Shown here piece by piece: positions 5,031 through 64,000 of a stretch of DNA of 64,000 nucleotides. Below the pieces are notes generated by a model. It ran no database searches. It was not told the DNA's origin and saw only the letters and a program-made list of their open reading frames with translations. Source of the DNA: Miscanthus floridulus (lineage: Eukaryota; Streptophyta; Magnoliopsida; Poales; Poaceae); NCBI RefSeq assembly GCF_019320115.1, contig NC_089584.1, forward strand, positions 57,532,852-57,596,851. The letters are read 5' to 3'. The first letter of the stretch is position 1. Every line of letters starts with the position of its first letter. The position numbers were made by a program, and so were the translations under genes.

Positions 5031-5217
5031 TCATGACAAAGTGGTCGCCACCATCTTTGGGGGCCTCACCACCGCTGAGAGCAGAAGAGATTAGAAGCTC
5101 GCCACCCACCGGGTGCTCGCCGTCAACACAAAAGACAGCCATCACCAACCCTAGCTCTCGCCCCTAGTCCGAGGTCCCCATCACCTTCAGTAGGGCCAAC
5201 CAATGGGCAAACATCCC

Positions 5218-11530: not shown

Positions 11531-11532
11531 GC

Positions 11533-11544
11533 TGGCATCAGAGC
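11533..11544 (+). other. Primer-binding site of the Tekay-like element
   Basis: TGGCATCAGAGC lies two bases after the LTR end and matches the usual initiator-tRNA-Met site TGGTATCAGAGC at all but one position. It fixes the orientation of the element as plus strand. Confidence 0.9.
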
Positions 11545-27400: not shown

Positions 27401-27809
27401 TACCTAAACAGATCCTAGTTGGTTCGAATAGCTTCCTTACCCTTCGCACCCGTCGACTCTGATGCAAAGACCCTTGCTCATTTTTCACTACACCCGGGCG
27501 CCGATGTAGCGCGCCACTAAGGAAGCAACGACCCGATCCTTGGTTACTTGACACCATGCCTAGATCATGACACAGCGCGTCATGGGGGTGACGACCCGGC
27601 CCTTGCCCATTTAACACCATACCCGGGTTCTGATATGGTGCGTCGCTAAGAGGGTTACGCCCCAATGATTTTCTTTCGGGTTTCATCTCCATTTAAGTGG
27701 CTAGGTTTTTACATTGGCTCGCCATGCCTAACACAACCCTCCTCCTTTACCAGGGCTTGGGACCTGCTATGCTAGGACACCAAAGGCGCCCCACCATAGG
27801 CGGAGTTTG
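24496..27809 (-). mobile_element. RTE-clade non-LTR retrotransposon (LINE), near full length
   Basis: The 3314-base insertion lies in the right long LTR, in minus orientation. It is flanked by perfect 15-bp target duplications GTTATTAATGTTTGC (24481-24495 and 27810-27824). The uninterrupted left LTR shows the empty site at about 10849. The 3' end is a short (TTG)n tail, seen on the plus strand as (CAA)n at 24496-24514. RTE elements are known for a single endonuclease-RT ORF and short microsatellite tails. The length and the 5' sequence before the ORF suggest a full-length copy. Confidence 0.95.
24573..27692 (-). pseudogene. RTE LINE endonuclease-reverse transcriptase ORF, one frame with six stops
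   Basis: A single frame of about 1040 codons runs from the ATG at 27692 to 24573 without any frameshift. The N-terminal part has an apurinic endonuclease-like domain (LGSWNVGSLIGKLREL, ILCVQETKWKGQKAKE, VISAYAPQVG). The RT domain has [49 protein letters not shown] and an intact FADD box ([14 protein letters not shown]). A conserved C-terminal segment with LRWFGHVQRRPLDA follows. In-frame stops are at 27057-27059, 26634-26636, 26085-26087, 25479-25481, 24930-24932 and 24921-24923. It would nick target DNA and copy its own RNA. As it stands the ORF is dead, but only lightly decayed. Confidence 0.94.
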
Positions 27810-28472
27810 GTTATTAATGTTTGCACCCTAATAAAATGATTGCTTAGTACAGGTGCTAATATAGTTAACAGGGTAATGGCTAAAAGTCACTGCTAGTTCA
27901 GGCTAAGAGTTGATCATTATTACTTATGCTTTTCTGCAAAAAGAAAGTGTCAGCCAGATCCACTACATTAAGCTATGCATAATCCTTGGTGTCATTTGTT
28001 TGGTTTTCAATGGGTAAGTCTAGCTGAGTACATTCTCATACTCAGGGTTTATTCCCTCTTGTTGCAGATGACCTTCTATATCAGGGATTCGGCAGGTGAT
28101 GAAGACTAGATCATGGGCATGATCTCTGTTCTCTTATCTGAATGCTTTTGCGGGCTGTGATCAGCAAACCAGTATGTGTATTTGAACTCGGGTGTGTAAG
28201 TTAAACTATTTGCTTCCGCATGTTTTACAAGACTTGTTTTGTAATAACGATGACTCTGTGATGATGTAATTTATTTGTGAACGTCTATGAAATGTTGTAG
28301 TGTATGATATGTTATGTTGAATAACTGTGATCTTGGTTGTATACAAGTTGGTTTGAAATCCTTCGAGATTTCAGTTGACTACCGGGTTTATATGGGCTCA
28401 AGTTCAAGAATTTGATCATTTCGGCGATTGTTTTTGTACTTGTGCTCTTATAAATTGGTCAGTTCTGTGATA

Positions 28473-29600
28473 GGGACTACCGTTCTTCAAACTCCTTAAG
28501 GCCTCCGAGTGCTTTCTCTTGGTCAGAGGTGGCAGATACAGCTTTTGAGCAGCTTAAGTTATTTCTAACAAAGCCTATGATCATGACAGCGCCTCGACCA
28601 GACGAAACACTATTGATCTACATCGCCACCACTTCTCGCGTTGTTAGCACAGCTATCATCATCAAACACGAGGAGGCTGGGCACGCCTATAAGGTGCAAT
28701 GTTTGGTCTACTTCATCAGCGAGATCCTTAATGAGCCCAAAACTCATTATCCTCAATTTCAGAAACTGCTATATGCTATTCTGAATCACATCATGAAAGC
28801 TCTGCCATTACTTTGAGTATTATAAGATAGCTGTGGTCACCGAGTTCCCTCTAGGGGACATCCTCCACAACAAAGAGGCCAACGGCCGCATCATCAAGTG
28901 GCTGTTGAGCTTGGCACTTACTCCATTGAATTCAGAAGCAGGCCTACCATCAAGTCACAGGTGCTTGCTAACTTCGTCAGCTGACTGGACCGAGATCCAA
29001 GAGCCCATCCCTGCTACTTGCCCCAAGCACTAGGTGATGTACTTCAATGGTGCCTTTAACACCTAACGATGCTAGTGCTGGCATTTTATTCATTACGTCG
29101 ACCAAAGACAAGCTCTGATATGTTCTCCGAATACATTTTCCTAGCCACCAACAACGTCGCCGAATATGAAGCATGTCTCCACGGACTCCAGTATAGCTGT
29201 TGAGCTCAGCGTCAAACACCTCATGGTATACAAAGACTCAGCACTAGTCATCAACCAGCTCAACAAAGACTGGTCCTGCTCTAGTGAGAAGATGGACACA
29301 TTGCACCAAAATCAGGAAACTCAAAGGGAAGTTCTATGGTATCGAGTACCACCACATGGTACGAGATCAAAATCAGCTCATCGACCACCTATCTAAAATA
29401 GGCTCTTCTCACGCTGTGATTCCATCGAGGGTCTTCGTTCAAGACCTCTTTATGTCATCTATTAAGGAAGAGAAGGAAGTTCAAGAAATTCCCCCCGCGC
29501 GAGCAGTTGGTACTTATAGTACCTTCGATGGCCAGCCGACTAGAGGGAGTAGTTCATCAAGTACCTCACCAGCACCGACGTACCCACCGACAAGACTAAA
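28473..29600 (+). pseudogene. Tat-like pol continuation: RNase H and additional archaeal-type RNase H
   Basis: The frame resumes at 28474 with GLPFFKLLK, completing the sequence cut at 6752. RNase H follows at about 28529-28816 (FEQLKLFLTKPMIM, RPDETLLIYIATTSRVVSTA), with the usual aspartate of the YIA block not evident. A second RNase H-like region at about 29035-29400 has VMYFNGAF, where the family normally has an aspartate instead of asparagine. Further motifs are NNVAEYEACLHGLQ, KHLMVYKDSALVINQLNKDW and KFYGIEYHHMVRDQNQLIDH. Dual RNase H is diagnostic of the Tat lineage. Multiple stops and frameshifts are present. Confidence 0.85.
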
Positions 29601-46713: not shown

Positions 46714-47652
46714 TTTTTTTTTCTCGAAAACGCAGGAGAGCTGCGCTTGATTATATTAAGAAGAAAGAAAGGGGCTAGAGCCCTACAACACACGCCACAC
46801 ACAACCCCACACAATTTAGAGATTACATTCGCGCCCGAAAATAGAAATGGAAGCGACCAAAAAGACTAGCACTAAGCTAACCACCGAGAGGTGCTGTCAA
46901 AGAGGACAGACCCTTAGCTCCTGCTAGACTCCACAGCCGGCGCTCTTCTCCAGCAAGGGTAAGTGCACCACCAAGGCTGGGGACAATACCATAAAAAACG
47001 CAATGGTTCTGATGGTTCCAAAGAGTCCATGCCCCGAGCACAATGAGAGAGTTGAGACCTTTTTGCATCAATCCGCTCGTTGCTCCAATAACTTGTTCCC
47101 ACCAGCTGTCAAAAGAAGTGTCTGAAGGTTGTGGTGACAAGGAATGGAGACCAACCCGCCTTAAAAAGTAATACCAGAATTGCCTAGCAAAGACACAGGA
47201 GACTAGAAGGTGGTTGATAGTCTCATCTTCCTGGTCATAGAGAGGGCACTGTTCAGGATGAGGCGCCCACGTCGCGCGAGGCGATCCGCCGTCCAGCTCC
47301 GATTGTGGGCCACCAACCAAAGGAAAAAGCGGCATTTGAGCGGTGGCCAGGTTCTCCAAATCCTCTCATACAGTCCAAACTGAGTAGATCCCATGAAGAA
47401 ACTCTCATAAGCAGACTTGGCTGAGTATTGCCCACTATTTGATAGCCGCCAAATGTGGACATCTTCGACATCAGGCTCTAGTTCAAAGTTGTACAACATT
47501 TCCCAGAGATGAAGTCCACAATAACACCAACCGTGAGGGCTCCCTTGATATCCAAAACCCAGCTGTGATCAGTAAGGGCTTCCTGGACAGTACGCGTTTC
47601 AGCCTTCTCTTTGGGATGGCTTCTAGTAGTCGAGGTGCAAGATCAGCGATAC

Positions 47653-47994
47653 TGTTGGAGTACGTCAGGGGCCTATTGGGCCTGGGTTGGCTATATAGCC
47701 CATTAGTGTTAGGGTTAATTAGAGATAAGGGTCGTTTACTTAAGGGTCAAGTAAGCCTGGCTTGGGAGTCAAGTAAACCTCTCTATATAAGGAGAGGAGA
47801 TGTATCAATCTAATTAAGCAAGAATTAAGAAGGAAAACCCTTCCCTCTTGCCCGGCCGTGGGCAAACGCCCCGCGGCCGGCTCTCTCTCTCACCCCCGCA
47901 GCCCTAGCCATGAACAGTACTCGCGGCACTGTAGCGCTGCAGCCGCTGTCGCTACCCTCGACTCTCTTCACTCAATCCTAGCAACCACATAACA
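47653..47994 (+). repeat. 5' LTR of the non-autonomous element
   Basis: TG...CA ends. A TATA-like TATATAA is at 47784-47790. Matched by 54159-54500. Confidence 0.95.
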
Positions 47995-48022
47995 TCTGGT
48001 ATCAGAGATCTCTGGTTCGATC

Positions 48023-48205
48023 ATGTGGTTCGATCATGTCCACCCCCTGCCATCAATGCCAGCGCCGTCGGCCGCGTCGGGGTTGTCGTCCGCATCCTCG
48101 GGAGCGCCCTTGATGTTGGAATCTTTGGCCGCCGACGTGGCTGCGATTGCCCGCGGCATGGCGGCCATGCAGGCGACCCTGGCCGCCCTCATCCCACCAC
48201 CTCTC
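48023..48205 (+). pseudogene. gag N-terminus of the non-autonomous element (first half)
   Basis: The frame starts at the ATG at 48023 (or 48053) and encodes a small, alanine-rich stretch (ESLAADVAAIARGMAAMQAT). It reaches ALIPPPL at 48205, where the chromovirus is inserted. It continues in frame at 53307 once the chromovirus and one CTCTC are removed. Confidence 0.75.
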
Positions 48206-48580
48206 TGTCAAGGGCCTCAAACCCCTGACTGGCCAGACCTTGGCTGCGTAGCTCGTAGCCGCCGTCCGTCACGCCGGCGAGGTTATGCCCCTCGGCCGTC
48301 GGCTTAAGAGAGAAAGAGAGATTAGGGATAACTTCTTTGTTGATCTCAATTGTCCCAGCGTACATGCATATATGGCCCGTGGCCTAACAGATGGAGAAGG
48401 CTCTCCTTGATTGTAGGACTAATCCAACAAGGAAGCAACTAATCAGCTAGCTAACTTTCCTCCTAGCCACTCGCCTGCCCTTCCTGTGCCCGGGCTGCTC
48501 GCTCGGCCGTTGCTCGCTCGGCCGCCCGGCGCACGTCGCGGGCTCTCCTGCGCCTGGCGTATGTGCGACCGCACATGACA
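48206..48580 (-). repeat. 3' LTR of the chromovirus
   Basis: 375 bases, longer than the other copy by a 15-base duplication (GCTCGCTCGGCCGTT region, about 48498-48525) and by two bases in an AG run. Confidence 0.93.
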
Positions 48581-48693
48581 TCTCTCCTGCCGTCGAAGAC
48601 CAGCTCGTCCTCGAGCTGAAAAGTGGGAAAGCGAGCACGGAAGTCGTCGAAGTCCTCCCAGCTCGCAGATGCCGCCGGCTCGTCTTTCCACTA
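48463..48693 (-). pseudogene. Chromodomain region of the chromovirus, cut off by a TAG
   Basis: Downstream of the TAG at 48691-48693 the same frame continues: WKDEPAASASWEDFDDFRAR and FPTFQLEDELVFDGRRDVM, a typical chromodomain end. It then runs as an arginine-rich tail into the 3' LTR to a TAG at 48463-48465. Chromodomains guide integration by binding histone marks. QVLV-stop-WKDE fits a single CAG-to-TAG change. Confidence 0.85.
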
Positions 48694-51600
48694 GACCAGC
48701 ACCTGTCGCACTCCGCGTGCCAGCCGGGCAGCGGTGATCTTGTCAGGCGCCAGCACCACGGCGCCGTTGTGGGTTGGTGGCAGTGCCGGGGGCGTGGCTG
48801 GGGGCGTGCCGACAAACTTCTTGAGCACCCCAACGTGGAACACATCATGGAGGCGGGCCCCCTGGGGAAGCTGCAGCCGGACAGCCACGTCGTTGATGAC
48901 CTCCTCGACGCAGTACGGCCCGACGAAACGTGGCTTGAGCTTGCCGGCGGTGGTACGTGGCAGGGATGCCGCTGGGCGCTGCCGGAGACGAAGGAGTACC
49001 CAGTCACCTACTTGGTACGCCACCGGGCGATGATGCTGGTCGTAGACACGCTTCTGGACCGCCTGTGCTTGTTCGAGGCGATAGCGGACGTCGTCGAGGA
49101 AGGCTGCGCGGTCCTCCATCTCCTGGGCAACAGCAGCCACGCGCGTCTCGCCGAGCTCATACGAGCGGATGGTCGGCGGGTCACGGCCATAGACCACGCG
49201 GAACGGTGTCTCCCGGAGTGACGATTGGAAGGCGGTGTTGTAGGTGTACTCGGCCCACGGGAGCCAACGGAGCCACTGCCGAGGACGGTCGCCGGTGAAG
49301 CAGCGGAGGTACATGACGATCACCCGGTTGGCGGCCTTCGTCTGGCCATCCGTTTGCGGATGAAATGCCGACGACATGAAGAGCTTGGTGCCGGTGAGGC
49401 GCATGAGTTCGGTCCAGAACGCGGACGTGAACACCGGGTCGCGGTCCGAGACGATGGACTGCGGAACGCCATGAAGGCGGACGATGTCGGCGAAGAAAGC
49501 TTGGGCGACGGTCTCGGCAGTGTAGGGGTGCGCCAGCGGGATGAAGTGGCAGTACTTGCTGAAGCGGTCGACGACGGAGAGGATGACCGTCTTGCCCTGC
49601 ACCCGTGGCAGCGCCTCAATGAAGTCGATGCCGATGTCGGCCCAAACGCTGGAAGGGATTGGCAGCGGCTGGAGCAGACCGGCTGGCCTCAAGTGGTCTG
49701 ACTTGTACTTCTGGCATGTGGCGCACGCCTTCACAAATTCCTGCACCAAACGACGCATGTTGGGGAAATGAAAGTCACGCCGTAGACGGTGCAGCGTGCG
49801 GTGGACGCCTTCATGGCCGTCGTCGTGGACCGCGGCCAGGATCTCCTGAAGGAGTGGCGATGCGGCTGGGATGTAGAGGCGGCCCTCCAGGGCGACCATG
49901 CCGTCGGTGATGGTCCACGGTGCGGTGCGGGTTTCCGCACGGAGCTCGTCGTGGATGGCGACCAGCGCTGGATCAGTGGCCTGGGCGTGGCGGAGGCGCT
50001 CGATGAAGTCGAACCGGGGCGCCGAGATGGCCAGCAGCTCGCCCTCGTTGTCGCGGCGGGAGAGAGCGTCGGCGACGGTGTTCGTGGCGCCCGAGCGGTA
50101 CTCCACCGTGAAGTCGAAGCCCAGGAGCTTGCCGACCCAGTGGTGCTGCGGTATCGTGGCGAGGCGTTGGTCGAGGAGGTATTTCAGACTGTAGTGGTCC
50201 GTCTTGACGAGAAAGCGGCGCCCCCACAAGTAGGGCCTCCAGTGCCGGACCGCCTGAACGAGGCCAATGAGCTCGCGCTCGTAGGCGGCCAGGACGCGGT
50301 GACGTGGTGCCACTGGCCGGCTGAAGTAGGCCACCGGGTGTCCCTCCTGGACGAGAACGGCCCCAAAGCCGAACGTCGACGCGTCGCACTCCACGACGAA
50401 CAGCTTGGCGAAGTCGGGCATGGCGAGGACGGGGGCCGACGTGACCGCCGCCATGAGTGCCGAGAACGCCGCGGCAGCTGCGTCGTCCCACGAGAAGCCA
50501 TCCTTCTTGAGAAGCGCAGTCAGGGGCGCAACCACCGTGCCATAATTATGCACGAACTTGCGGTAGTACCCCGCGAGCCCGAGGAAGCCACGAACAGCAC
50601 GGGCGGAGCAAGGAGCCGGCCAGTCACGAATGGCCTGCACCTTGGCCGGATCCATGGCGACGCCCGCAGCGGAGATGATGTGGCCAAGGTAGGCGACGGC
50701 GGGGGCACCAAAGGAGCATTTGGTGTGCTTGACGAAGAGCTGGTGGCGGCGGAGCTTGTCGAGGACAGCACGAAGATGGCGCAGATGATCCGCCCATGTC
50801 TTGCTGTAAATCAAAATATCGTCAAAAAATACCAAGGCGAAGCGGCGGAGGAACGACCGGAGTACGTCGTTCATCAAGGCTTGGAATGTGGCCGGCGCGT
50901 TGCAGAGTCCGAACGCCATGACCAAGAACTCGTACAGGCCGTCATGCGTGCGGAACGCCGTTTTGTGGACGTCCTCGGACCGCATGCGGACCTGGTGGTA
51001 CCCCGACTGCAGATCCAGCTTGGAGAAGAATTTGGCGCCATTGAGCTCGTCCAGCAACTCATCCACCACCGGTATCGGGAAGGCGTCCTTGACCGTCATC
51101 GCGTTCAGGGCCCGGTAGTCGACGCAGAAGCGCCATGAACCGTCGGGCTTCTTGACGAGGAGGACCGGCGACGAGAACGGCGAGTCGCTGCGGCGGACGA
51201 TCCCATGTTCAATCATGGCGGCACATTGCCACTCCAATTCGTCCTTGTGGGCAGCCGGGTACCGGTAGGGGCGTACGGCTACCGGCTGCGCATCGGGCTT
51301 CAGCAAGATGCGGTGGTCGTGGGCGCGCTTGGGGGGTAGGCCGGTCGGTGTGGCGAAGACCCCCGCAAACGCGTCTAGGAGGGCCTCCAGAAGGGGCTCG
51401 CCAGCTGCCAGGGCACTCAAGGCGGGGCCCGCCGCGGTGGGCACGCCAGCCCAAGAGACGGTGCGGCCCTCGCGTTGGAATGACATGCGCCGGTTGGCCA
51501 GGTCCCAGACAATGGGCCCCAGCGCTCCGAGCCACTTGGTGCCGAGGACGATGTCGTACCCAGCCAGGGGCATGACGAAGAGGTCCACCGGGAACGGGTC

Positions 51601-51831
51601 ACCGGCGATGAGCAGTGGCGCGTCGCGGATGACGCCGGCGCAGGTGATCCTCTCGCCATTGGCGACCATGGCCGTGAGGCGGGGCCGCTGACGGAGAGGC
51701 AGTCCGGACCGCCGCGCTGCCTCCTCGGAGATGAAATTGTGGGTGCTGCCGGAGTCGAGGAGGGCGACGAGCGAGGCAGCCCCCAGCGCCACCGCGAGCT
51801 GCATGGTGTTCGCCATGGACACGCCGGCCAC
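48691..51831 (-). CDS. Chromovirus pol (1046 aa open): protease, RT, RNase H, integrase; integrase Glu replaced by Lys
   Basis: Residue numbering from the ATG at 51831. Protease has DSGSTHNF at 26-33. RT covers about 160-400, with YHQVRMRSEDVHKTAF and an intact FFDD at 335-338. RNase H covers about 470-590 (VVECDASTFGFGAVL, KTDHYSLKYLLDQ). Integrase has a zinc-binding HHCC (H669, H673, C703, C706), then catalytic D736 (GIDFIEAL) and D796 (VSDRDPVF). The third catalytic residue, expected 35 residues after D796, is K832 (codon AAG at 49336-49338) instead of glutamate. The stop at 48691-48693 (TAG) cuts the ORF before the chromodomain. Apart from these the ORF is fully open. The natural start would be the gag ATG. 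Confidence 0.95.
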   Translation of the reverse strand: MAGVSMANTMQLAVALGAASLVALLDSGSTHNFISEEAARRSGLPLRQRPRLTAMVANGERITCAGVIRDAPLLIAGDPFPVDLFVMPLAGYDIVLGTKWLGALGPIVWDLANRRMSFQREGRTVSWAGVPTAAGPALSALAAGEPLLEALLDAFAGVFATPTGLPPKRAHDHRILLKPDAQPVAVRPYRYPAAHKDELEWQCAAMIEHGIVRRSDSPFSSPVLLVKKPDGSWRFCVDYRALNAMTVKDAFPIPVVDELLDELNGAKFFSKLDLQSGYHQVRMRSEDVHKTAFRTHDGLYEFLVMAFGLCNAPATFQALMNDVLRSFLRRFALVFFDDILIYSKTWADHLRHLRAVLDKLRRHQLFVKHTKCSFGAPAVAYLGHIISAAGVAMDPAKVQAIRDWPAPCSARAVRGFLGLAGYYRKFVHNYGTVVAPLTALLKKDGFSWDDAAAAAFSALMAAVTSAPVLAMPDFAKLFVVECDASTFGFGAVLVQEGHPVAYFSRPVAPRHRVLAAYERELIGLVQAVRHWRPYLWGRRFLVKTDHYSLKYLLDQRLATIPQHHWVGKLLGFDFTVEYRSGATNTVADALSRRDNEGELLAISAPRFDFIERLRHAQATDPALVAIHDELRAETRTAPWTITDGMVALEGRLYIPAASPLLQEILAAVHDDGHEGVHRTLHRLRRDFHFPNMRRLVQEFVKACATCQKYKSDHLRPAGLLQPLPIPSSVWADIGIDFIEALPRVQGKTVILSVVDRFSKYCHFIPLAHPYTAETVAQAFFADIVRLHGVPQSIVSDRDPVFTSAFWTELMRLTGTKLFMSSAFHPQTDGQTKAANRVIVMYLRCFTGDRPRQWLRWLPWAEYTYNTAFQSSLRETPFRVVYGRDPPTIRSYELGETRVAAVAQEMEDRAAFLDDVRYRLEQAQAVQKRVYDQHHRPVAYQVGDWVLLRLRQRPAASLPRTTAGKLKPRFVGPYCVEEVINDVAVRLQLPQGARLHDVFHVGVLKKFVGTPPATPPALPPTHNGAVVLAPDKITAARLARGVRQVLV

Positions 51832-51834
51832 GGC

Positions 51835-52809
51835 CTATAGCGAGAAGCAGGGAGCCTCCTTGTCCCCCGCTTCAGCGGCGTCGTCGGTGTCGTCGATCTC
51901 CACACCGTATACGAAGAAGATCCGCTTGCAAAACCTGTTATGGCCACGAGAGTACTTTTCATCACAGTTAAAACATAGGCCAACGCGACGACGTTCCGCC
52001 TGCTCCGCCGTGGAGAGGCGCCGCTGGTTGCCCTCGCGGCGTCCCTGGTCGGCACCCGCCGGTGGCGCGGGCAGCGCCAGCTGCTGGGGCGGCGCAGGAA
52101 GAACCGGGCGAGGCGGCGGCGACGGCAGCAGACCACGCGCGGCGGGCCGAGCCGGGGCCTGGGCCTGCCTGTCGATCTCCATGAGCTCCACCTGGCGCGC
52201 CAAACTCATCGCGTTGGCGTGTGTCTCGGGGTTGTGGATGCGCACCGCATGACTCAGAGGCGGAAGGAGGCCGCCGGTGTAGAGCTGGACCCGTCGGATC
52301 TCGTCAAGCCGGCCGACGCGGGGAAGGAGTGCTTGGAACCGATTGGAGTACTCCTCCACCATCCCGGTACGCCGGCACTCCGAGAGCTCGAACAGGGGGG
52401 CCGATCGGAGAGGAGGGCCAAACCGCAAATGGAGGAGTTCCTTGAATCGACCCCAGCGCGGCGTGCCTTCATCCTCCTGGAGCTGGACGTACCACAGCTG
52501 GGCCACGTCTTCGAGATTGAACGAGGCCATCCATACCTTCTCTTCCGGCATGGTTCTCTGTTGGTGAAAGTAGGACTCACATCGGTTGATGAAGATCAGC
52601 GGATCGGATTTGCCGTCGAAGCGCGGGAAGTCCATCTTCTGGAACCGCGGTGGCCGGTCGTTGTGATGGATGCCGTCGGTGGGCCCGGCACCCGCCGAGG
52701 AAGAGCTCGACTTGTCCTTCAGGGATGCCAGGTCGGCCTTCATGGTCGCCATATCCGCGGACAGATCCTGGAGCATCTTGGTGAGGTCGGCGATGGCTTG
52801 TTCCCCCAT
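51835..52809 (-). CDS. Chromovirus gag (324 aa), followed by an in-frame TAG and pol
   Basis: The ATG at 52809 gives MGEQAIADLTKMLQDLSADM, a short coiled-coil leader. The gag domain spans about residues 55-200 (DFPRFDGKSDPLIFINRCES, FNLEDVAQLWYVQLQEDEG, YSNRFQALLPRVGRLDEIRR). A proline/alanine-rich linker and one zinc knuckle (CFNCDEKYSRGHNRFC, near residue 290) follow. It would form the particle and bind element RNA. The TAG at 51835-51837 is in the same frame as pol, and the coding sense continues directly after it (AVAGVSMAN). Either this stop is a CAG-to-TAG mutation or gag ends here naturally; the former is likelier because this lineage usually has one gag-pol ORF. Confidence 0.9.
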   Translation of the reverse strand: MGEQAIADLTKMLQDLSADMATMKADLASLKDKSSSSSAGAGPTDGIHHNDRPPRFQKMDFPRFDGKSDPLIFINRCESYFHQQRTMPEEKVWMASFNLEDVAQLWYVQLQEDEGTPRWGRFKELLHLRFGPPLRSAPLFELSECRRTGMVEEYSNRFQALLPRVGRLDEIRRVQLYTGGLLPPLSHAVRIHNPETHANAMSLARQVELMEIDRQAQAPARPAARGLLPSPPPRPVLPAPPQQLALPAPPAGADQGRREGNQRRLSTAEQAERRRVGLCFNCDEKYSRGHNRFCKRIFFVYGVEIDDTDDAAEAGDKEAPCFSL

Positions 52810-52943
52810 GATCGGCTGGGCAGCGGTGGATGCGGTGGAGGAAGACGGGGATGGCGGTGGTGAGGATGGTGGTGCGGCGGCGGTGGATAGGCTGGTGGAG
52901 CGGGAGCGAGGCGGCGAAGTTCGCCGGACTCGTGATACCAGGT

Positions 52944-53301
52944 TGTCAAGGGCCTCAAACCCCTAACTGGCCGGACCTCGGCTACGTAGCTCGTAGCCGC
53001 CGTCCGTCACGCCGGCGAGGTTATGCCCCTCGGCCGTCGGCTTAAGAGAGAAAGAGATTAGGGATAACTTCTTCGTTGATCTCAATTGTCCCAGCGTACA
53101 TGCATATATGGCCCGTGGCCTAACAGATGGAGAATGCTCTCCTTGATTGTAGGACTAATCCAACAAGGAAGCAACTAATCAGCTAGCTAACTTTCCTCCT
53201 AGCCACTCGCCTGCCCTTCCTGCGCCCTGGCTGCTCGCTCGGCCGCTTGGCGCACGTCGCGAGCTCTCCTGCGCCTGGCGTATGTGCGACCGCACATGAC
53301 A
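52944..53301 (-). repeat. 5' LTR of the chromovirus
   Basis: 358 bases, followed on the minus strand after three bases by the primer-binding site. Confidence 0.93.
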
Positions 53302-53306
53302 CTCTC

Positions 53307-53754
53307 CCTCCACAACAGCCGGCACCACCACCACCTCCACAGTCGTGGCAGCCGCAGGCGATCTTTCCCTACGGCATGCCCCAGACCAGCGGGACGGGGG
53401 TGCCCCTCCACTTGCTGCGGTCCCAGGGCGTCCCCATCCAGCAGATCAGGTTCCCGTCGTCGCCGTCACTGCTTCCGGCTTTGGATCGCTGGTTCGTCGA
53501 AACCCATCTACACGGCGCCAGTACCCAGCCGCACCTACCACCGCTCCCGACCACCGGGGTTGTCATGGCGCGGCGCCCTGGCTCCGGGCGTCCTCGACGG
53601 CGGGGTGGACGGCCCCTTGTTCCACGGCGGCAGCCTGATGCCGACGCTCTCCGCCGCGTCGCCCTCGCTGGACAGCACGGGCGCGGCGCCCTCGGCCGCT
53701 GCACAGGACCCGCCGCCCAAGTTTTACAAGTTGGAGTTCGCCACATACGGTTGA
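53307..53754 (+). pseudogene. gag of the non-autonomous element (second half, truncated)
   Basis: The frame reads PPQQPAPPPPPQSWQPQAIF, then PYGMPQTSGTGVPL and VPIQQIRFPSSPSLLPALDR, a proline-rich gag leader. After a frameshift near 53565 it reaches DPPPKFYKLEFATYG, the beginning of a gag core domain, then stops at TGA 53752-53754. Everything downstream of this point in a normal gag-pol is deleted. Confidence 0.75.
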
Positions 53755-54158
53755 GGAGGCACATCCCTCCACCTCGTTCTCCATAGAAAGTCCTCCGCTC
53801 TTCTCCGTGCGGTGCAAACCAGCAGCCGTCTGGCGGGGAGAAGGCGCCACTGGCCGTGAGGGCGCCTCCGCTGGTCGCTGTTGCGACCACTTCCAGGTGG
53901 CCATACACATGCACCCCTTGCGTCTACATGGTGTCCATGGGATCCAGGAGGATGTATACATGCAGGTTTGGCGAGTGGATGGTGTCCACCTTATGTTCAG
54001 GAGTCAAAAATAAAGAGTCCCAGTCTATTTTAGGTTGAGAATAATAAAATAAGCCAAGATGTAAAAGGCTTGTTTTTTAGGTGTTAGGAGTCGAGTCAGC
54101 GTTATAAGTTCGTTAGGTTGCAGCTCGAGGACGAGTTGCATGTCCAGGTGGGGTGTAG
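53755..54158 (+). other. 3' region of the non-autonomous element
   Basis: Non-coding sequence between the truncated gag and the 3' LTR. Near 54118-54140 the words CAGCTCGAGGACGAG resemble the end of a gypsy pol (QLEDEL), so the deletion removed the middle of an originally autonomous element. Confidence 0.55.
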
Positions 54159-54500
54159 TGTTGGAGTACGTCAGGGGCCTATTGGGCCTGGGATGGCTGT
54201 ATAGCCCATTAGTGTTAGGGTTAATTAGAGATAAGGGCCCTTTACTTAAGGGTCAAGTAAGCCTGGCTTGGGAGTCAAGTAAACCTCTCTATATAAGGAG
54301 AGGAGATGTATCAATCTAATCAAGCAAGAATTAAGAAGGAAAACCCTTCCCTCTTGCCCGGCCGTGGGCAAACGCCCCGCGGCCGGCTCTCTCTCTCACC
54401 CCTGCAGCCCTAGCCATGAACAGTACCCGCGGTACTGTAGCGTGGCAGCCGCCGTCACTACCCTCGACTCTCTCCTCTCAATCCTAGCAACCACATAACA
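54159..54500 (+). repeat. 3' LTR of the non-autonomous element
   Basis: Same length as the 5' copy. It is preceded by the purine-rich AGGTGGGGTGTAG, a likely polypurine tract. Confidence 0.95.
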
Positions 54501-57500
54501 GATACACTGTCCATGGATCCAACGATCAGTCCAAAACAACGTGCGATTCCCATTGCCTACTTTCGATACAACAGCCACCGAGAAGAAGGCATTAACTTGG
54601 TCCGGGATCTGAATAGGAAGGGCTGCCCAAGGGCGGTGAGGTTCAGTTTTTTTCAGCCAAACCCACCTCATCCTTAGTGCCCAGCCGAGATGTTTGAGAT
54701 CAGAAATTCCAAGTCCACCATGCTGAGGGGGGCGGGTGACCTTTCCCCAAGCCACAAGACAATGTCCTCCACGGGCATCTTTGCGGCCCCTCCAAAGAAA
54801 ACTTCTCCGAAGCTTGTCCACGGCTTTAATAGCCCATGGTGGGAAATCAATCGCCATCGCCAGATAAATAAGCATGGCAGTGAGAACAAACTGCACCTGA
54901 ATTCTTCGTCCTGCCCGTGTCATGAGATTTGCTTTCCATCCTGGTAGCTGATCAGCAATTCTATCTATAATAGGTTGGACTTGTTCTTTAGTTAACTTCT
55001 TGAGGGAGAGAGGCAGCCCCAAATACTTGCAAGGAAAATTCATGACAGCACAAGGGAGAAGTTCCTGTACCAATGCCAATTCTGTATCCCCACACCTGAT
55101 TGGTAACACATTGCTTTTCTGCAAATTGGTTTTGAGGCCTGAAGCTTCACCAAAAAGTTGGAGGATGCTCATTATGACATTTATATCCATTGCTTCCAGG
55201 CGGAGAAAAAGAACCACGTCGTCCGCATAGAGGGAAATGCGATGTTGGAGAGCTCGAGATGAAAGTGGCTGCAACATACCATCAGCGGCTGCCTTGGCTA
55301 CCATATGCCCCAACACATCCATAACTAGAATAAAAAGCATGGGCGATAACGGGTCACCTTGTCTTAATCCTCGCCGGTGAGTAATACGCTCCCCAGGTAT
55401 CCCATTCAACAGCACTTGAGTAGAACAGGAGGAGAGTAACCCACTGATTATGTCCCTCCAAATTTGGCCATAGCCTAAGTGCTGCAAGACCTCTAGCAAA
55501 AAGGGCCAAGAAACTGAATCAAAAGCCTTCGAGATATCTAATTTTAAAAGGATTCTGGTTTGCTTTTGTTGATTGAGAAATCTTGCTGTTTGCTGAACTA
55601 GCATGAAGTTGTCCTGAATGAAGCATCCCTTTATAAATGCACTTTGATTAGGAGACACCATCTGCTGCAGCCGGCATGCAAGTCGATTCGCCAACAATTT
55701 AGTGTTCAACTTAGCAAAACTATGAACCAGGCTGATAGGCCAAAAATCTCTTGGCTGCTCTGCTTCCTCTTTCTTAGGTAGAAGGGTGATGTAGGCTGCA
55801 TTAAGCACTTCAAAACCTGCAAATCTCCTACTCCACACAGCAGAAACTGCAGCCATGATATCACTCTTTATGATCGGCCAGCAGACCTTGTAAAACCGAC
55901 CAGTAAACCCATCTGGACCGGGCGCTTTATCTGGAGGCAGCTGCTTGATTGTGTTCCACACCTCTTCCTCTGTAAAAGGGAGCTCAAGGGCGGCCAGATC
56001 GTGGGGGAGGATTCCCAGCTCATCAAGGTTGATGGTGCGCTCTCTGTCCAGGGTGGTTCCAAGTAAATTCTCATAGAAATCATCAACCAATCTTGCTTTG
56101 TCTTCATGTTTGGTGTAGATTTGGTCTCCTGAAACAAGCTTGCCAATGAAATTCTTCCTCTTGCGGTGACGGGCATGGAGTTGGAAAAGTTTTGTTTTGG
56201 CGTCCCCATCACGTACCCAGTCAATTCTTGAGCGAAGACGAGTAATAGTCCGCTTGAGGGATGCAAGAGCAAGGCTGTGCTTCTTAAGACTGATTTTCAG
56301 CCAGTTTTCCCTTGGTGAGAGGGTGTGACTGTCTTGTGCGATCACCAATTGATGGAGGATTTCATGGGCAAGGGGTAGCTGAGAGTTAACATGACCAACA
56401 GTTTTATCACTACAACTCTGTAAAGCTTTAGTAGCAGCTTTGAACTTGAAGTCCAAGGTGAGAAAAGGACAAGGACCAGCCTGCACTGAAGCCCAAGCAT
56501 CTGCTATGGTGTCCTGATACCCCTCAAACTTAGGCCAAAAAGATTCGAAATGGAAGCGTCTACGGCCCAATTTATTATCCTGAAGTCCAAGCAAAAGAGG
56601 GCAATGGTCTGAGTCTTCCGAAGCCATGCTTTGCAGTAAACAATTTGGGAAAAGGTCCTCCCAGTCCACTGAACAAAACACCCTGTCCAACTTAACCAAA
56701 GTAGGATTCGTTTGCTGATTTGACCATGTATATTTCCAACCATGCAGGGGAATTTCCTTGATAGCTAGGGTCATTAATTAGACGACGTCTGAAACGACCC
56801 ATCATTGCCCGATTGTAGTTATCGTTATTTTTGTCTTCCTCTTTGTAAATCAGGTTGAAATCTCCTGCTAGAACCCATGGTCCAGGACAACCCCCTCGGA
56901 TATCTCTTAGCTCCTGAAGAAACTGAATCTTTCATCCATGCCCTGAGGACCATACACACAGGTTAACCACCAGGAAACTCCATTAGTCGGGCAGAACTGA
57001 ATGGTCATGCTGTTGGCATTCACGTGGCAAGCTCCTGCATTACCAAGATGATGACACCAAGCAACGAGAATTCCACCACTAGCACCTACAGAAGGGAGCT
57101 CAGCAAACTCTGAGAAATCTGTCCCCAGAGCAGATAGGAGCACTCGCCTGGAGGATGTAGAGATTTTCGTTTCCTGGATGTACACAATATCTGACCGGGA
57201 GGCTTCCACAAGAGTACGAAGAGAATCTTGCCTTGCTGTAGAATTGAGGCCTGTTACATTCCAAATTAAAATTTTGGCTGGATCCATTGGAGCAGCTCAT
57301 GCTACCACTACATCCTCACAAAACTCAGGGATGGACCAATTGAACAAGGCGGCCAAACCAAGCAGATATCAGAAAGCGGGTTCTTAAACAGCTTACTGTA
57401 TTCATCTTCAGCCTGCTGATTGACACCATTCTGCTCAATAATGATTTCCAGCGAGTGCGTGACCTTCTTCGATCGTCGTGCCCAGTCCGCCGGCTGGAGC

Positions 57501-57839
57501 TCAGGCACAGCACCCGCAAGGTGTCGACTGCGCCGTGGGGTCTCACCCGGTGGCAGTGTTTTTTTGCGACGTTTGCTGATGGCGGGGACAGGCAGCAGAC
57601 CTGCTGTCCGACGGGAGAGCTTGCTGATGAAGGCGTCGTGGTTCGAAGGCGTCACAGCTGGGGACGGAGCCGGAGCTGCCACATCCCCCGCCGGGACGCA
57701 CGGAGATTTGGGGATGGCCTCAGGTTCCAGCTCTGTTGTCAGCACTGTTGTGGTGGCCTCTGGGTGAGTAGCCCCGCGTCGGCGAGAGCGGCAACGAGAG
57801 TAGACTTGTAACGGCTTCGCAGAGCGTTTGCCCAACCCT

Positions 57840-58140
57840 GGCGACCTTGGGGGATTTCCTTCGGTGGCCAAAATTGAGGTGGGAAGCAGCGGCAAGCATG
57901 GTGAGGCCGTCAAGACTAGGGGATGCCCCTCCGTTGCCTCACCATGGCTTCCTTCAGTGGCTATGCTTGAGGTGGGATGTGGCAGCGAGCATAGTGAGGC
58001 CGGCAAGACTAGGGGATTCCCCTCCGTTGCCTCACCATGGCTTCCCTCAGCGGCCATGCTTGAGGTGGGATGCGGCGGCAAGCATGGTGAGGCCGACAAG
58101 ACTAGGGGATTCCCCTCCGTTGCCTCACCATGGCCCACGG
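57840..58140 (-). repeat. Tandem repeat in L1 ORF1 (unit about 84 bp)
   Basis: Three to four in-frame copies encode variants of GSHGEATEGNPLVLSASPCL. They differ by a few residues (ATEGNPLVLPASLC, ATEGHPLVLTASPC). On the plus strand the units share AGACTAGGGGATTCCCCTCC. Variable repeats in the ORF1 tail would change linker length without breaking the frame. Confidence 0.88.
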
Positions 58141-59480
58141 CGAAAGTGTCAGCGATTGGGCCATGTGTCTCTACAGGTCCAGAAACATCCCTGTCCATCG
58201 GCCCAGAAAGAGCAGCATTTGATGGGCTGGGCTGGGCTGGACAAGATCAGACTTCAAATCAGTCCAGGAATCCTTCATCTGCCCAAGGGAGGCCAACCCA
58301 TCGTCAACCTCAAACCTCACGAGGGTGGGCGAGATAACCGAAGGGCCAGCCTCGTTAGGCACAACAGCAGCAGCAATGACTGGGCTCCCCTCATTAAGAT
58401 CCATTGAGCCGTTAGCAGGAACAGCCGCTGTCGAATCGAGCACGGGTGTCTCCTCGGAAATCAACCTGAGGGGGCCAAGTTCAATGTGATGGCTGTCTGG
58501 GGGCGCGCGTGCAGCCTCCTGGGCATTGGCGCACGGTTCTAGCGTAATCGTCGTAGAGGATACCGTCACGTGTATTGCACACGAAGCAGGCGGGCCCACA
58601 CGTTCATGAACCGACCGGCGCTGCGAACCCATCGAGCCGTCAGCCGCTCTGTTGGCCGCCGTCCCGGAGTTAGGCCGCATCGAGGGAGAGCGAAGCCGGT
58701 GCCGCCGCCTAGCAGATGCATCCTCATCACTGCCGTCCCCAGGAGGAGGGGTAGGAGGAGGCCTAGGAGTAGTCCCATGGGGTCCGAGAATCGTCGTAGA
58801 GCGGACGTTGATCGGGTACGCCAACAACCGCGTCACTGGAGGGTCTTCCACGACGGCGACGGGTGGCTCAGCGGCCCAAAGATCCTTAGCTGTTAATTGC
58901 AGAGGGATCCAAGCACCAGGCCGAACATCGGAAGGGATATAGATCCACCAAATTCACAGTATCAGGATGAACTTGTTGAATCCAAGCGTGAGGGCTCAAG
59001 AACTATTCCACTGTAGACGTTTCCCAGACATGAGCGGGGATACCAAAGAGCTCCAGGTCGACCAAACATGGAAGCACCCTTCATGCTGCGCCGGCTTGAC
59101 GTGTCCACCGTTGGCAAAGTAGACTGAGCCCCTGTGAGCGAAGCGGTTGCCGCAGCCCTCGTAGACTCTCAACCAAGGCAGTGTTAGGGAAGACCATCAA
59201 GTATCTTGAAGAGGAGGCACGACGGAGGACCAGAGAGGCAATCAGAGCTGCCACTTCATCGACCCGATCACTGTGACGATCACTGCATGAGCCAAGTCTT
59301 CCTCTGGCTTGGCAATGCAGTCACTCCAATCAATGATGCATGGGAGGGGTCTCGCAACTTCCAGGGCAACATCTGGAGTGGTAGTAGAGACAACCTCCAG
59401 TGAACGTTCAGCCGCCGGAGGGGAGCCATCAAGGCCCTGATTTGGTCGTTGATGACAGCGCGGCTTTCTTCGCTGGCACC

Positions 59481-61262
59481 TCATGCCCTGGCTAGATTTA
59501 GGACGCCGCCCATCATGATCACCGTGTTGGCGATAAGACGACCACGCCGGTCCCAGATACGGAGCACTCCATGATCAATCTCCACCCTGGAGCCTCCTTC
59601 GTCGAGCTGTCCCAAACTCATAATCGAGTTCCGGAGCGCTGGGATGTAGAAGACGCCATGGAGGACGCGCTGCTCCCCGTTCTTGGCCTGGAAGACGATG
59701 GAGCCGGTCCCCTTGATCTCCACTCGAGACGAGTCGCCGAAACGCACCGTGCCGCGCGCCGTGGTGTCGAGCTCGGCGAAGAGCTCCTGGCGGCCGGTCA
59801 TGTGAAGCGTGGTCCCGCTGTCGAGGTACCAGCCGTCGAGCGCCTCCTCGTTGGCCCTGGTGTTGAGGAAGACACGCGCGCGCGGCTCGTTGATGTCGAG
59901 GGAAGTCGTGGCCTTGGAGCAGACGGCTTCGGCCTTCTCATCCAGCTCGAGGAAGCCATGGGCGAGGAACAGAGCACCATCATCGTCCTCGGCTTCTGCG
60001 ACGTGCGCAGCACCGCCACGCCCACCACCGCGCCGTCCACCTCGATCACCTCCAACACGGTTGCCTCCTCCGCGGTCACCACCACTGCGATTGCCTCCTC
60101 CGCCTTGGTTGCCACTGTCGCCGCCGCGGTCACCACCACCACGGCGCAGCTGGCGGCAGTCGCGCGCCCAGTGGCCGCGATCACCACAGTTGAGGCAGGT
60201 GTCGTCGTCTGCCCCGCGATCGTCGCCACCGCCTCTGTCTCCTCCGCCGCGATTGCCCTTCCCGCGCTGCTTCTTGCCGCCGCGTGGACGACGTCGCGGT
60301 TCCTTGCCTGCTGCGGAAGCGGCAGCCTCCTTCTCCTTGGCATGCCACTGCTCCCTTGTCAGCAGCAGGCTGCTGATGGCGGCCGGTTCCACGGCCAGCG
60401 CCTCCATGTCGTCCACCGTCTTCAAACGCCCAGACACCTCGATGGTGAGGTCCTGGAAGTTGAGAAGCGTCTCGATGGCGATCCGGAGCTGGGCGTACTT
60501 CGGCGGCACGGCGCGCAGGAGCCTCTCCACCGCGCGCTCTTCATCGATGTCGTTGTCACCGTGGAGAAGAAGCTGCTGCTTCAGGGCCATCAAGCGAAGA
60601 GTGAAGTCCTCGATCTGCTCACCCGGACGGAAGGCGAGCTTCTCCCAGTCGCTGTGGAGTCGCTGGAGCGTGGCACGGCGCACCCGATCGACGTCGATCC
60701 GTGCGGCGGCGATGGAGTCCCAGGCCTCCTTGGCTGATCCCTTCTTGGACAGCGGCATCTGCATCTCCTGTGGCACGGCGGCGATGATCGCCTCCACCGT
60801 GCGCCTGTCCTCATGGTACGGCAGGTCCTGGTACTCGATCGCGTCCCAGAGTTGCCGCGCTTGGAGCTTCAGCTTCATGATCGAGGCCCACTCATGGTAG
60901 TTTGACTTGGTGAGCATCGGCCAGGTGGAGCTTGAGCCAGAATCCTTGTATACGGTTTGGATCACCGGCGAGCAGCCCCTGGCCCGTCCGCGGTGGCAAT
61001 CCTGATTCCGATTGGGCGACCGCGTCTGCCTGCGCTCGCGCTCCGGGCTCCTCCGTGGACGCGGGCGGCGATCGCGCGGCGGATCCTCCGCCAACTCTCG
61101 ACGCAGAGCCGCGGCCGTGGCGGCCGCGTTCCGAGCTGCTGTTGTTGCGGCCTCCGCGGCCTGCTGCACTTGCGTGGCTGCGGCCTCTGCCGCGGCCAGA
61201 CGCTGCGCACGCTGCTCGGCGGCGGCGGCGGCTGCTGCTGCTCGTTCTGCGGTGGTGGCCAT
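59481..61262 (-). CDS. Copia-type gag-protease fragment, intact 593-codon ORF
   Basis: The ATG at 61262, just after the primer-binding site, was chosen because upstream in-frame sequence belongs to the 5' repeat. The N-terminus is an alanine-rich helical stretch, then an arginine/serine-rich segment. A UBN2-type gag domain follows at about residues 115-320 (WPMLTKSNYHEWASIMKLKL, LQRLHSDWEKLAFRPGEQIE, VERLLRAVPPKYAQLRIAIE). A glycine/arginine-rich zone holds one zinc knuckle (CLNCGDRGHWARDC). The C-terminal part lies in the 3' repeat and has the protease start GWYLDSGTTLHMTG, in which the usual alanine after DSG is threonine. It ends near IWDRRGRLIANT, runs 44 bases into the LINE and stops. 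No internal stop is present. It would make a particle protein but no replication enzymes. Confidence 0.9.
   Translation of the reverse strand: MATTAERAAAAAAAAEQRAQRLAAAEAAATQVQQAAEAATTAARNAAATAAALRRELAEDPPRDRRPRPRRSPERERRQTRSPNRNQDCHRGRARGCSPVIQTVYKDSGSSSTWPMLTKSNYHEWASIMKLKLQARQLWDAIEYQDLPYHEDRRTVEAIIAAVPQEMQMPLSKKGSAKEAWDSIAAARIDVDRVRRATLQRLHSDWEKLAFRPGEQIEDFTLRLMALKQQLLLHGDNDIDEERAVERLLRAVPPKYAQLRIAIETLLNFQDLTIEVSGRLKTVDDMEALAVEPAAISSLLLTREQWHAKEKEAAASAAGKEPRRRPRGGKKQRGKGNRGGGDRGGGDDRGADDDTCLNCGDRGHWARDCRQLRRGGGDRGGDSGNQGGGGNRSGGDRGGGNRVGGDRGGRRGGGRGGAAHVAEAEDDDGALFLAHGFLELDEKAEAVCSKATTSLDINEPRARVFLNTRANEEALDGWYLDSGTTLHMTGRQELFAELDTTARGTVRFGDSSRVEIKGTGSIVFQAKNGEQRVLHGVFYIPALRNSIMSLGQLDEGGSRVEIDHGVLRIWDRRGRLIANTVIMMGGVLNLARA
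59525..60114 (-). repeat. 3' terminal repeat ('neo-LTR') of the copia-type element
   Basis: In frame with the gag ORF, so the coding sequence runs through it. It ends TCGCCAACA, directly against L1 ORF1 sequence. Confidence 0.88.
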
Positions 61263-61303
61263 GCCTCTCCCTTTCTCTCTCAACCCCGTGCTCTGATGCC
61301 AAT

Positions 61304-61891
61304 TGTTGGCGATAAGACGACCACGCCGGTCCCAGATACGGAGCACTCCATGATCAATCTCCACCCTGGAGCCTCCTTCGTCGAGCTGCCCCAAACTCAT
61401 AATCGAGTTCCGGAGCGCTGGGATGTAGAAGACGCCATGGAGGACGCGCTGCTCCCCGTTCTTGGCCTGGAAGACGATGGAGCCGGTCCCCTTGATCTCC
61501 ACTCGAGACAAGTCGCCGAAACGCACCGTGCTGCGCGCCGTGGTGTCGAGCTCGGCGAAGAGCTCACGGCGGCCGGTCATGTGATGCGTGGCCCTGCTGT
61601 CGAGGTACCAGCCGTCGAGCGCCTCCTTGTTGGCGCTGGTGTTGAGGAAGACGCGCGCGCGGCTCGTTGATGTCGAGGGAAGCCGTGGCCTTGGAGCAGA
61701 CGGCTTCGGCCTTCTCATCCAGCTCGAGGAAGCCATGGGCGAGGAATATAGCACCATCATCGTCCTCTGCTTCTGCGATGTGCGCAGCACCGCCATGCCC
61801 ACCACCGCGCTGTCCACCTCGATCACCTCCAACGCGGTTGCCTCCTCCGCGGTCACCACCACCGCGATTGCCTCCTCCGCCTTGGTTGCCA
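61304..61891 (-). repeat. 5' terminal repeat ('neo-LTR') of the copia-type element
   Basis: Carries a frameshifted copy of the gag tail and protease start (GWYLDSRATHHMTG). It directly precedes the primer-binding site. A 2-base deletion in a CG run relative to the other copy shifts the frame. Confidence 0.88.
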
Positions 61892-62871
61892 CCGCCTCAC
61901 CACTTCCGTCGATTCAGGACGCTGTCCCTCATGAACACCGCTCACCACACCCGTCGGAAGAGGCCGTTGCGGGGGAGCAGCTTCTGCAGGGGTAAGCCGC
62001 CGCCAAACCGGAAGCAGTGGCTGTGGACGTTGCGCCGCGCCATCACCGCTCACCAAAACCGCCGGAGGAGACCGTCGCAGGGGAGTAGCTTCAGCGGGAT
62101 GCATAGGCCTCGGGCTATTCCGCCTCCAGACTGATAGACGACGCTGAGGGCACTGCACCACATCGCCGCCCGCCAAACCCGCCGGGGGAGGTCGTTGCTG
62201 GCCAGCAGGACGACGAGGCCCCGAGCGAACCCCGCCACCACCACCAGCCACGCTCAGGCACTTGTAGGTTGGATGGCCTAAAGCGTGGCAGAGGAAGCAG
62301 CGGGTCTTCTGACGGCACAGGGCAGCTGTGTGCGAGGCGGAGAAGCAATTGAAGCATTTGCCAGTAAGGTCGACGGGAACCGGACGTCGTGGATTAGCCG
62401 CCTTGCGCCGCCGTTGCCTGGTGCACCGCCGTTCAAACCTCTGCCAGCCATCCGAATCCGTGCGACAGGCAACGTGCGGTCCACCGGAACCGCGTCACCC
62501 AGGAGCCTGACGGAGGAGGATGATCTTGGCAACGTTGTAGGCCACCGCCGCCGCCGTTGTGTTCCTAGCCATCTCAGCGGGCACAGCACCAGCAGCCGAG
62601 GTAGCCGAACCAGCCGAGGAAGCCGAACCAGCCGCCCCCGACGCTTCGGGAGATCCGACCTTAGGACGACGTCGCGGAAGGAAGGCGAGCTTCTTTCGCT
62701 CCAGCGCTCCTGCTTTGAGCGGCCACGAGCGGCGTGAAGAGGCAAGGAGGAGGCGGAGGGGGAAACCGCCGCCTTTGAGGGGGAGGAGGATGTGGCCGCC
62801 GGGATCGGGATGATCTCCGGTGCGGGGCTGGTGGAAGGCGAAACGTCGGGAGGGGAAGCGACGGGAGCCAT

Positions 62872-63170
62872 ACTTTTAGAAGGGTGTTTTTTAAATATTC
62901 TACAGCCATTGACGTTGTATTTCACTGCTACTTTACTAAATGTCCACTGTAATTTAATTTACTACATTTTGGGGCAATGAGCGTTTGCATGCGGACCATT
63001 ATTTTTCATTTATGAAAATCAATATAAAACAAATAATAGATAATTACATTTGATAATAATTAGTCTATCAATGCCATTCTCAAATATCAAGTGACAAATT
63101 TGAATACTTTCATGTATAATGATAATGAAGTAGTGGTAGGAATTTTAAAGTTTGACTATATATGCATTTT
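62872..63170. other. AT-rich intron-like DNA right of the L1 LINE
   Basis: No gene or clear repeat is seen. It is presumably a continuation of cyclin-T intron 4, since the LINE lies between it and exon 4; this depends on the gene continuing beyond the window. Confidence 0.4.
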
Positions 63171-63538
63171 GGGTTTATTTGGTTGCCTGCATATTTGCAT
63201 AACCCATTATCCAGGCCCCCGCAGTGCAATTCGTCCCTGTTTGGATACCTTCACAGGTCCATATGCAGGCTAGCACTGTCCTCAAAGCAAGGTCAACCCG
63301 CATGCCACTATTCAGCCAAATCCTGCATATCCAGCTATGCACCCTTCCTCTTGCACCCGCACTGCAGCCCAAGACACAGTCCAGCCACTTATGCAGGAAA
63401 CCAATCACACATAGCATTGTACAGCTTCCTATCTCGGCAAACCAAACAACATCAAATTGCATTGCATTGTCCAGGTTAAGAGTATGATGCGTAACCTCTA
63501 ATGCAATGTAATACTAATGCGAGTTACCAATCAGACCC
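63171..63538. mobile_element. MITE-like element
   Basis: The ends are imperfect inverted repeats, GGGTTTATTTGGTTGCCTGC and the complement of GTTACCAATCAGACCC. The interior contains repeated TGCAT/ATGCA words and no convincing ORF. A GGGTCTGTTTGGTT-like end is common among grass hAT-type MITEs. No matching target duplication was found, so the family is open. Confidence 0.55.
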
Positions 63539-63756
63539 TATGAGATCCATTTTGGACGGACATGGTATAAAATATTCATGATTCACATATTGTGTTGTTG
63601 GGTATCTGTCATTTTAGTTATTGGATTTTTGTAGCATACCACATTATTATTCTTTTTGGTGTTTCTATCTACAGCTTTGTCACTTCGCAGAAATTCTCTT
63701 AGGGCTAGGTGGACATTGTTGTCCTTAAATTTTCTGGTTAATTTGATTCGTTGTAT

Positions 63757-63931
63757 TGAAGCGCTGGCCTGGTGCTAGTGGTAGAGTCTTACCGTCTGTG
63801 ACCGGAAGGTCCCGGGTTCGTGTCGTGGTCTTCTCGCATTGCACATGCGAGGGTAAGGTTTGCCACTGACATCCTTCCCCAGACCCCGCACAGAGCGGGA
63901 GCTCTCTGCACTGGGTACGCCCTTTTTTTTT
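63757..63931 (+). mobile_element. Au-like SINE
   Basis: A tRNA-derived head has box A-like TGCTAGTGGTAGAG (63772-63785) and box B-like GGGTTCGTGTC (63814-63824). The body reads GACCGGAAGGTC, CCCCAGACCCCGCACAGAGC, GGGAGCTCTCTGCACTGGG, and it ends in a T run. This is the known layout of the Au SINE family of plants. A perfect 11-bp target duplication ATTCGTTGTAT flanks it (63746-63756 and 63932-63942). RNA polymerase III transcription is possible but unproven. Confidence 0.93.
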
Positions 63932-64000
63932 ATTCGTTGTATCACAACCATTTCCTTTCATGGTGTCTGAGATGCAAACCCTGAAACTAATTTTACTTTA

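Follow-up and report, generated by a model that had tools for sequence, protein, structure and literature searches.

On the minus strand of a 64,000-nt stretch of Miscanthus floridulus DNA (hereafter the window; NC_089584.1, forward strand 57,532,852-57,596,851, with all coordinates below given as window positions), we identified what reads as a copia-type jumping gene bounded by its own gag-protease sequence and devoid of normal terminal repeats. This element is probably a copia deletion derivative that gained new LTRs in a single accident. We are largely confident that aberrant reverse transcription was responsible: an early jump of the minus strand, internal priming of the plus strand and a second transfer would have built the new LTRs from coding sequence before integration.

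Two repeat comparisons within the window, together with a global alignment, revealed a pair of ~96.4% identical direct repeats on the minus strand, a 5' copy at 61891-61304 and a 3' copy at 60114-59525. The alignment spans 588 sites with 19 substitutions (14 transitions and 5 transversions) and one 2-nt gap in the 5' copy, which corresponds to a K80 distance of 0.033. Both candidate LTRs consist of gag-tail and protease coding sequence. The 5' copy extends from TGGCAACC to CGCCAACA, the latter also being the terminus of the 3' copy, and each repeat opens with TG and closes with CA, as expected of terminal repeats; the left TG may overlap the target duplication described below. Between the repeats lie, on the same strand, an AT spacer (61302..61303), a primer-binding site, TGGCATCAGAGC (61290..61301), a short leader and a gag-protease frame.

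The terminus of the upstream repeat thus reads CCAACA-AT-TGGCATCAGAGC, that is, an LTR/primer-binding-site junction, with the primer-binding site directly 3' of the 5' repeat at a distance of 2 nt, as in LTR elements. This junction, CCAACAATTGGCATCAGAGC, occurs once in the window and in none of 100 shuffles. The primer-binding site has four near-matches in the window, three of which fall at most 3 nt from the 3' end of a two-copy repeat; the fourth (31193) is not near the 3' end of any. The site matches TGGTATCAGAGC, which presumably pairs with the plant initiator tRNA-Met, at 11 of 12 positions; the single mismatch to this consensus, whether inherited or due to later mutation, is uninformative. 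A tRNA scan of the whole window detected no tRNA. PMC3977881 prints TGGTATCAGAGC for both Tos17 and Lullaby, whose primer-binding site is accordingly similar to that of the element described here.

The open gag-protease frame (P0002; 59525..61262, minus strand) comprises 579 codons from an ATG at 61262, runs through the whole 3' repeat and extends 14 codons beyond it into the flank. The initial annotation had reported direct repeats of ~590 bp around a gag frame, with TG starts and CCAACA ends on the minus strand, a primer-binding site after the upstream copy, ordinary gag-tail and protease content with the gag frame unbroken into the 3' repeat, and ~3% divergence between the copies; all of this held up in our comparisons. 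Pfam matches in the long frame (Pol_BBD, DUF4219, Retrotran_gag_2 and zf-CCHC), along with relatives that are copia polyproteins, place the gag and protease region in Ty1/copia. In the frame occupying the element, domain searches found no integrase, reverse transcriptase (RT) or RNase H domain; the element is therefore a copia deletion derivative and not an autonomous member. Indeed, grass Ty1/copia elements, such as those represented by P0005 (Paspalum), P0008 (Festuca) and P0014 (Eleusine), share the same gag, zinc knuckle and protease-adjacent domains, but full-length copia relatives continue beyond the repeat end into integrase, whereas the element has nothing past the protease and, unlike these relatives, carries repeats that are coding.

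A search with residues 218-796 of the long frame, in which 7987 candidates were scored, recovered at least 39 relatives, the best among the matches listed being 60% identical. An organism was named for 15 of the 39, namely 14 grasses and one Tagetes, and no relative among the matches listed appears close enough to represent a further copy of the element. When viral contigs were scanned with the gag-protease protein, with the LTR/primer-binding-site junction in two forms and with one full-length relative, no relative was confirmed; an alignment of 11 relatives out of the 39 likewise confirmed none in viral or in prokaryote genome contigs. Rfam models at gathering thresholds gave no match in 54501-64000.

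We then inspected the letters at which the repeats end. Both copies read GCC-AAC-A at this point, AAC encoding asparagine. In the alignment of all 39 relatives, the 36 that have a residue at this position show lysine (30), arginine (4), methionine (1) or proline (1, from a poorly aligned protein) and never asparagine, and the next position is valine in 32 of 35. By comparison with these proteins, the parental protease most likely read GCC-AAR-GTN, and the CA that closes the repeats is, because of this lysine-valine consensus, most likely not protease sequence. Nor does the CA of the 3' copy belong to the target, since an intact unit of the same L1-like element has AG before CGGTG. In the 5' copy, CA adjoins AT and the primer-binding site and is thus best read as the parental LTR end. 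The terminal CA of both copies would then most likely be foreign to protease and target alike, and derived from beside the primer-binding site, with the final AACA of the 3' repeat (59525..59528, minus strand; a lysine codon in 30 of the 36 relatives) as the presumed trace of the minus-strand jump. This foreign tract is only 2 nt long, could be mimicked by two point changes in the parent, and is recognized from the proteins of relatives and not from the parental sequence. The jump had originally been proposed to land on an internal CCAACA of the protease gene. Its early timing agrees with our data, but since relatives mostly have lysine-valine there, the jump probably landed on CCAA with different letters behind it; the sequence shared at the jump would probably amount to ~4 nt, if the parental LTR ends in CCAACA.

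The flanks of the insertion belong to an L1-type element, as evidenced by an ORF2-like frame at 54399-56777 with an RVT_1 match (9.5e-33); a weak endonuclease match at 56907-57296 (E 0.009) lies below the cut-off. The pieces next to the insertion have no Pfam match, and their naming as ORF1 therefore rests on position, on what we take to be a zinc-knuckle-like pattern and on relatives. A search with the L1 pieces returned 7 proteins among 7991 scored, the best of which is a hypothetical protein, P0042. Residues 1-68 of P0042 align with the upstream side of the insertion (61901..62104, minus strand) at 87% and residues 71-158 with the downstream side (59260..59523, minus strand) at 75%. With an alternative tblastn setting, the first match covers residues 1-95 at 70%, is gapped and extends into the element, which renders the left break less sharp. 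By our reading, residues 69-70 would be supplied by GTG-AG from the left and C from the right; the uninterrupted gene would therefore read through once, leaving GCGG plus TG on the left as surplus.

At the DNA level, an intact 45-nt L1 unit adjoining the insertion (61912..61956, minus strand) provides a paralogous empty site. The right flank aligns with this unit over 30 ungapped nt, 25 of them identical, and starts exactly at CGGTG; none of 5000 letter shuffles reached the same score. The right target-site copy, CGGTG, is whole (59520..59524, minus strand), whereas the left one (61890..61894, minus strand) has its last two letters in common with the repeat TG and is preceded by one extra G, which is absent from the neighboring intact unit and unexplained. 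The duplication originally annotated as CACCG (CGGTG on the minus strand) is hence complete on the right and holds on the left only if it overlaps the repeat TG; three nucleotides, CGG, are duplicated with certainty, and all five, CGGTG, only if two were lost or shared. Matches of 5 nt are not rare locally, since 56 of 2980 shifts of the left boundary and 34 of 2980 shifts of the right boundary do equally well; taken by itself, the duplication is therefore weak evidence, and it is the two empty sites that bear the weight. An empty site in L1 ORF1 relatives was what the initial annotation had suggested looking for, and P0042 and the intact unit both span the site; the adverse outcome it had envisaged, no insertion site in related L1 copies, did not materialize, as related L1 sequence continues through this position. 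Between the ORF1-like and ORF2-like parts, we also noted three 93-nt tandem units (57856-58134; 86% and 89% identical to the first) within an open minus-strand frame.

These observations would fit the following course of events. Synthesis primed by the tRNA at the primer-binding site would have made only ~4-8 nt (the complement of CA-AT or CCAACA-AT), and this stub would have left its template and annealed through ~4 letters (CCAA) to the protease gene instead of the R region. From there, minus-strand synthesis would have returned across protease and gag as far as the primer-binding site, omitting integrase, RT and both normal LTRs. The plus strand may have been started at TGGCAACC or to its left, inside the gag tail, and reached the tRNA end, whereupon second-strand transfer at the primer-binding site would have duplicated the stretch from the plus-strand start to the jump, yielding two identical LTRs made of coding sequence. 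Integrase would finally have joined the normal-looking CCAACA end, and the TGG end less cleanly, to an L1 copy, a short stretch of the target being duplicated. The expected products of protease annealing, back-copying and duplication by the second transfer are legible in the DNA, as is the insertion site; from them we infer what the parent read, in which order the steps took place, where the plus strand began and that integrase acted. Second transfer is described in PMC5371799 as proceeding either through the copied tRNA end, in retroviruses, or through recycled priming, in Ty1 and Ty3. The primer-binding-site route would fit better here, since recycled priming needs shared LTR-end sequence, of which only CCAACA-AT could remain.

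A coding-derived LTR arising through an early jump, internal priming and second transfer had already been put forward from the letters alone and is the best-supported mechanism, but its purine-rich priming site fared poorly. The 12 nt preceding TGGCAACC are 67% purine, a level that 32% of the 12-nt windows across the examined stretch attain, and thus no polypurine tract stands before the 3' repeat. Upstream of TGGCAACC, purine runs of 13, 8 and 8 nt begin at distances of 224, 149 and 131 nt; none immediately precedes it, and better runs elsewhere in the element went unused as a start. Past its TG, the left end is unlike the TGTT-type starts quoted for several LTR groups in PMC3601003, and the left junction is irregular, with the extra G and no full CGGTG-TG. 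The plus strand could have started from an ordinary RNase H remnant or further upstream, with subsequent trimming and joining via GTG, and the central claim survives under either option. The latter, in which integrase acted on the CCAACA end alone and the trimmed left end was end-joined through GTG, is a variant compatible with the core of our explanation, and we consider it a reasonable though less probable course. It would make use of the purine runs 131-224 nt upstream, account for the GTG common to target and element at the junction, where the left CGGTG would be complete with no TG lost, and accommodate the extra G; on the other hand, it turns the TG at the repeat start, needed by integrase, into a 1 in 16 coincidence. 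Within the leader, just upstream of the gag ATG, an 18-nt pure purine run (61264-61281) makes a better polypurine tract than the site where the plus strand presumably started.

The history of the two copies since insertion was read from their substitutions. These are distributed 8/5/6 over the codon positions (chi-square p 0.69 against equality). In the 5' copy, the DSGA motif lacks its conserved glycine and further conserved residues are gone, and the 3' copy has lost different ones; both copies look to have decayed neutrally since insertion. Their K80 of 0.033 is intermediate between the values for two further LTR pairs of the window (0.045 and 0.031). At a substitution rate of 1.3e-8 per site per year, the insertion would be about 1.3 million years old. 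The last 165 aligned sites hold only 1 of the 19 substitutions (p 0.016, with the boundary picked after seeing the data), which may reflect gene conversion or chance and counts against a uniform clock.

Other elements reside in the window. An ordinary small LTR insertion at 47648-54505 (TGTTGG...ATAACA, primer-binding site TGGTATCAGAGA, 5-bp duplication GATAC) adjoins the L1 ORF2 frame and contains a reversed gypsy-type element with repeats at 48206-48587 and 52944-53307 and an ORF at 48694-51834. A 6.5-kb stretch is repeated at 4319-10863 and 17998-24496 with 94% identity and adjoins an LTR-like pair (10846-11531 / 27808-28473); the primer-binding-site match of this pair, at 11533, has the TGGC variant in common with the element bounded by gag-protease repeats.

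Three further origins were weighed against aberrant reverse transcription. That the element is a copy of an established non-autonomous family with coding-derived LTRs, and not the product of a one-off accident, seems improbable to us: its intact gag frame and LTR-like ends would suit such a family, but the best relative among the matches listed stops at 60% identity and the window harbors no second copy. Even less credit is due to a tandem duplication, at the DNA level, of a truncated primer-binding-site-gag-protease fragment resident in L1, one copy of which was then truncated. Such an event can yield direct repeats around gag, and L1 holds other local tandem repeats, but the break would have to fall precisely at the boundary of repeat and primer-binding site, and the scenario leaves unexplained both the CA of the 3' copy, which is unlike the protease relatives and the intact target unit, and the lossless resumption of L1 on the other side. 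Reverse transcription is favored over this alternative because of the foreign CA, the read-through of L1, and the unbiased codon positions and LTR-like divergence of the repeats. It is more improbable still that the element is the remains of a head-to-tail array in which a deletion fused protease to the end of a middle LTR and the outer ends were lost later. Copia complexes of this kind do occur in grasses (PMC1950507); however, the ending of the 3' copy at the very letter of the internal deletion, next to a short target duplication, would have to be chance, and since the L1 match resumes ~10 nt from the left end and 1 nt from the right end, there is no room for other remains of an array. The tandem duplication and the decayed array are both disfavored by the presence of the same apparently foreign CA twice, next to an empty site across which L1 reads on uninterrupted. 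We discarded autointegration of a normal cDNA by reasoning alone, as LTR ends would then abut the downstream side of the protease, and a protease/CCAACA-AT-primer-binding-site arrangement would not result.

Aberrant transfer in grass copia elements has been described for the template-switching complexes of Triticeae, rice and maize (Sabot and Schulman 2007, PMC1950507). As proposed for the element reported here, these arose by aberrant strand transfer within one round of reverse transcription and subsequent insertion, in their case with a 5-bp target duplication; they differ in that the switch took place at the normal R and left three normal LTRs, whereas here it would have preceded R and the LTR was replaced. 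TRIMs, according to PMC4717578, are derivatives of internally deleted LTR elements, mostly copia, and resemble our element in being short, non-autonomous and the outcome of internal deletion. However, they keep the LTR type of the larger element, whereas ours lost its LTRs and gained new ones; with an open gag-protease frame and repeats of gag-protease sequence, it departs from TRIMs, which have no coding region and carry the LTRs of a larger element. Template switching has likewise changed LTR content in asymmetric-LTR HIV-1 proviruses and in the hybrid LTRs of Onsen, but these altered LTRs (PMC9278108, PMC5668417) are still derived from LTRs, unlike the coding-derived repeats of our element. 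LTRs made of coding sequence were not mentioned in the titles and abstract openings among the matches listed by our literature search, the coverage of which leaves out most subscription journals, and a search for minus-strand strong-stop DNA with microhomology returned no match.

The origin of new LTRs is an open question in retrotransposon evolution. If read as we propose, this insertion records a strand transfer from a stub of ~4-8 nt, and second-strand transfer and integration can use terminal repeats without LTR ancestry. More speculatively, and with the odds rather against it, jumps within the first few nucleotides might in a single step turn any internal stretch into working LTRs and thereby seed non-autonomous families with unrelated LTRs. 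Events of this kind would leave a searchable signature, namely paired LTRs whose sequence corresponds to the coding interior of an element family and which bear a foreign CA end beside the primer-binding site.
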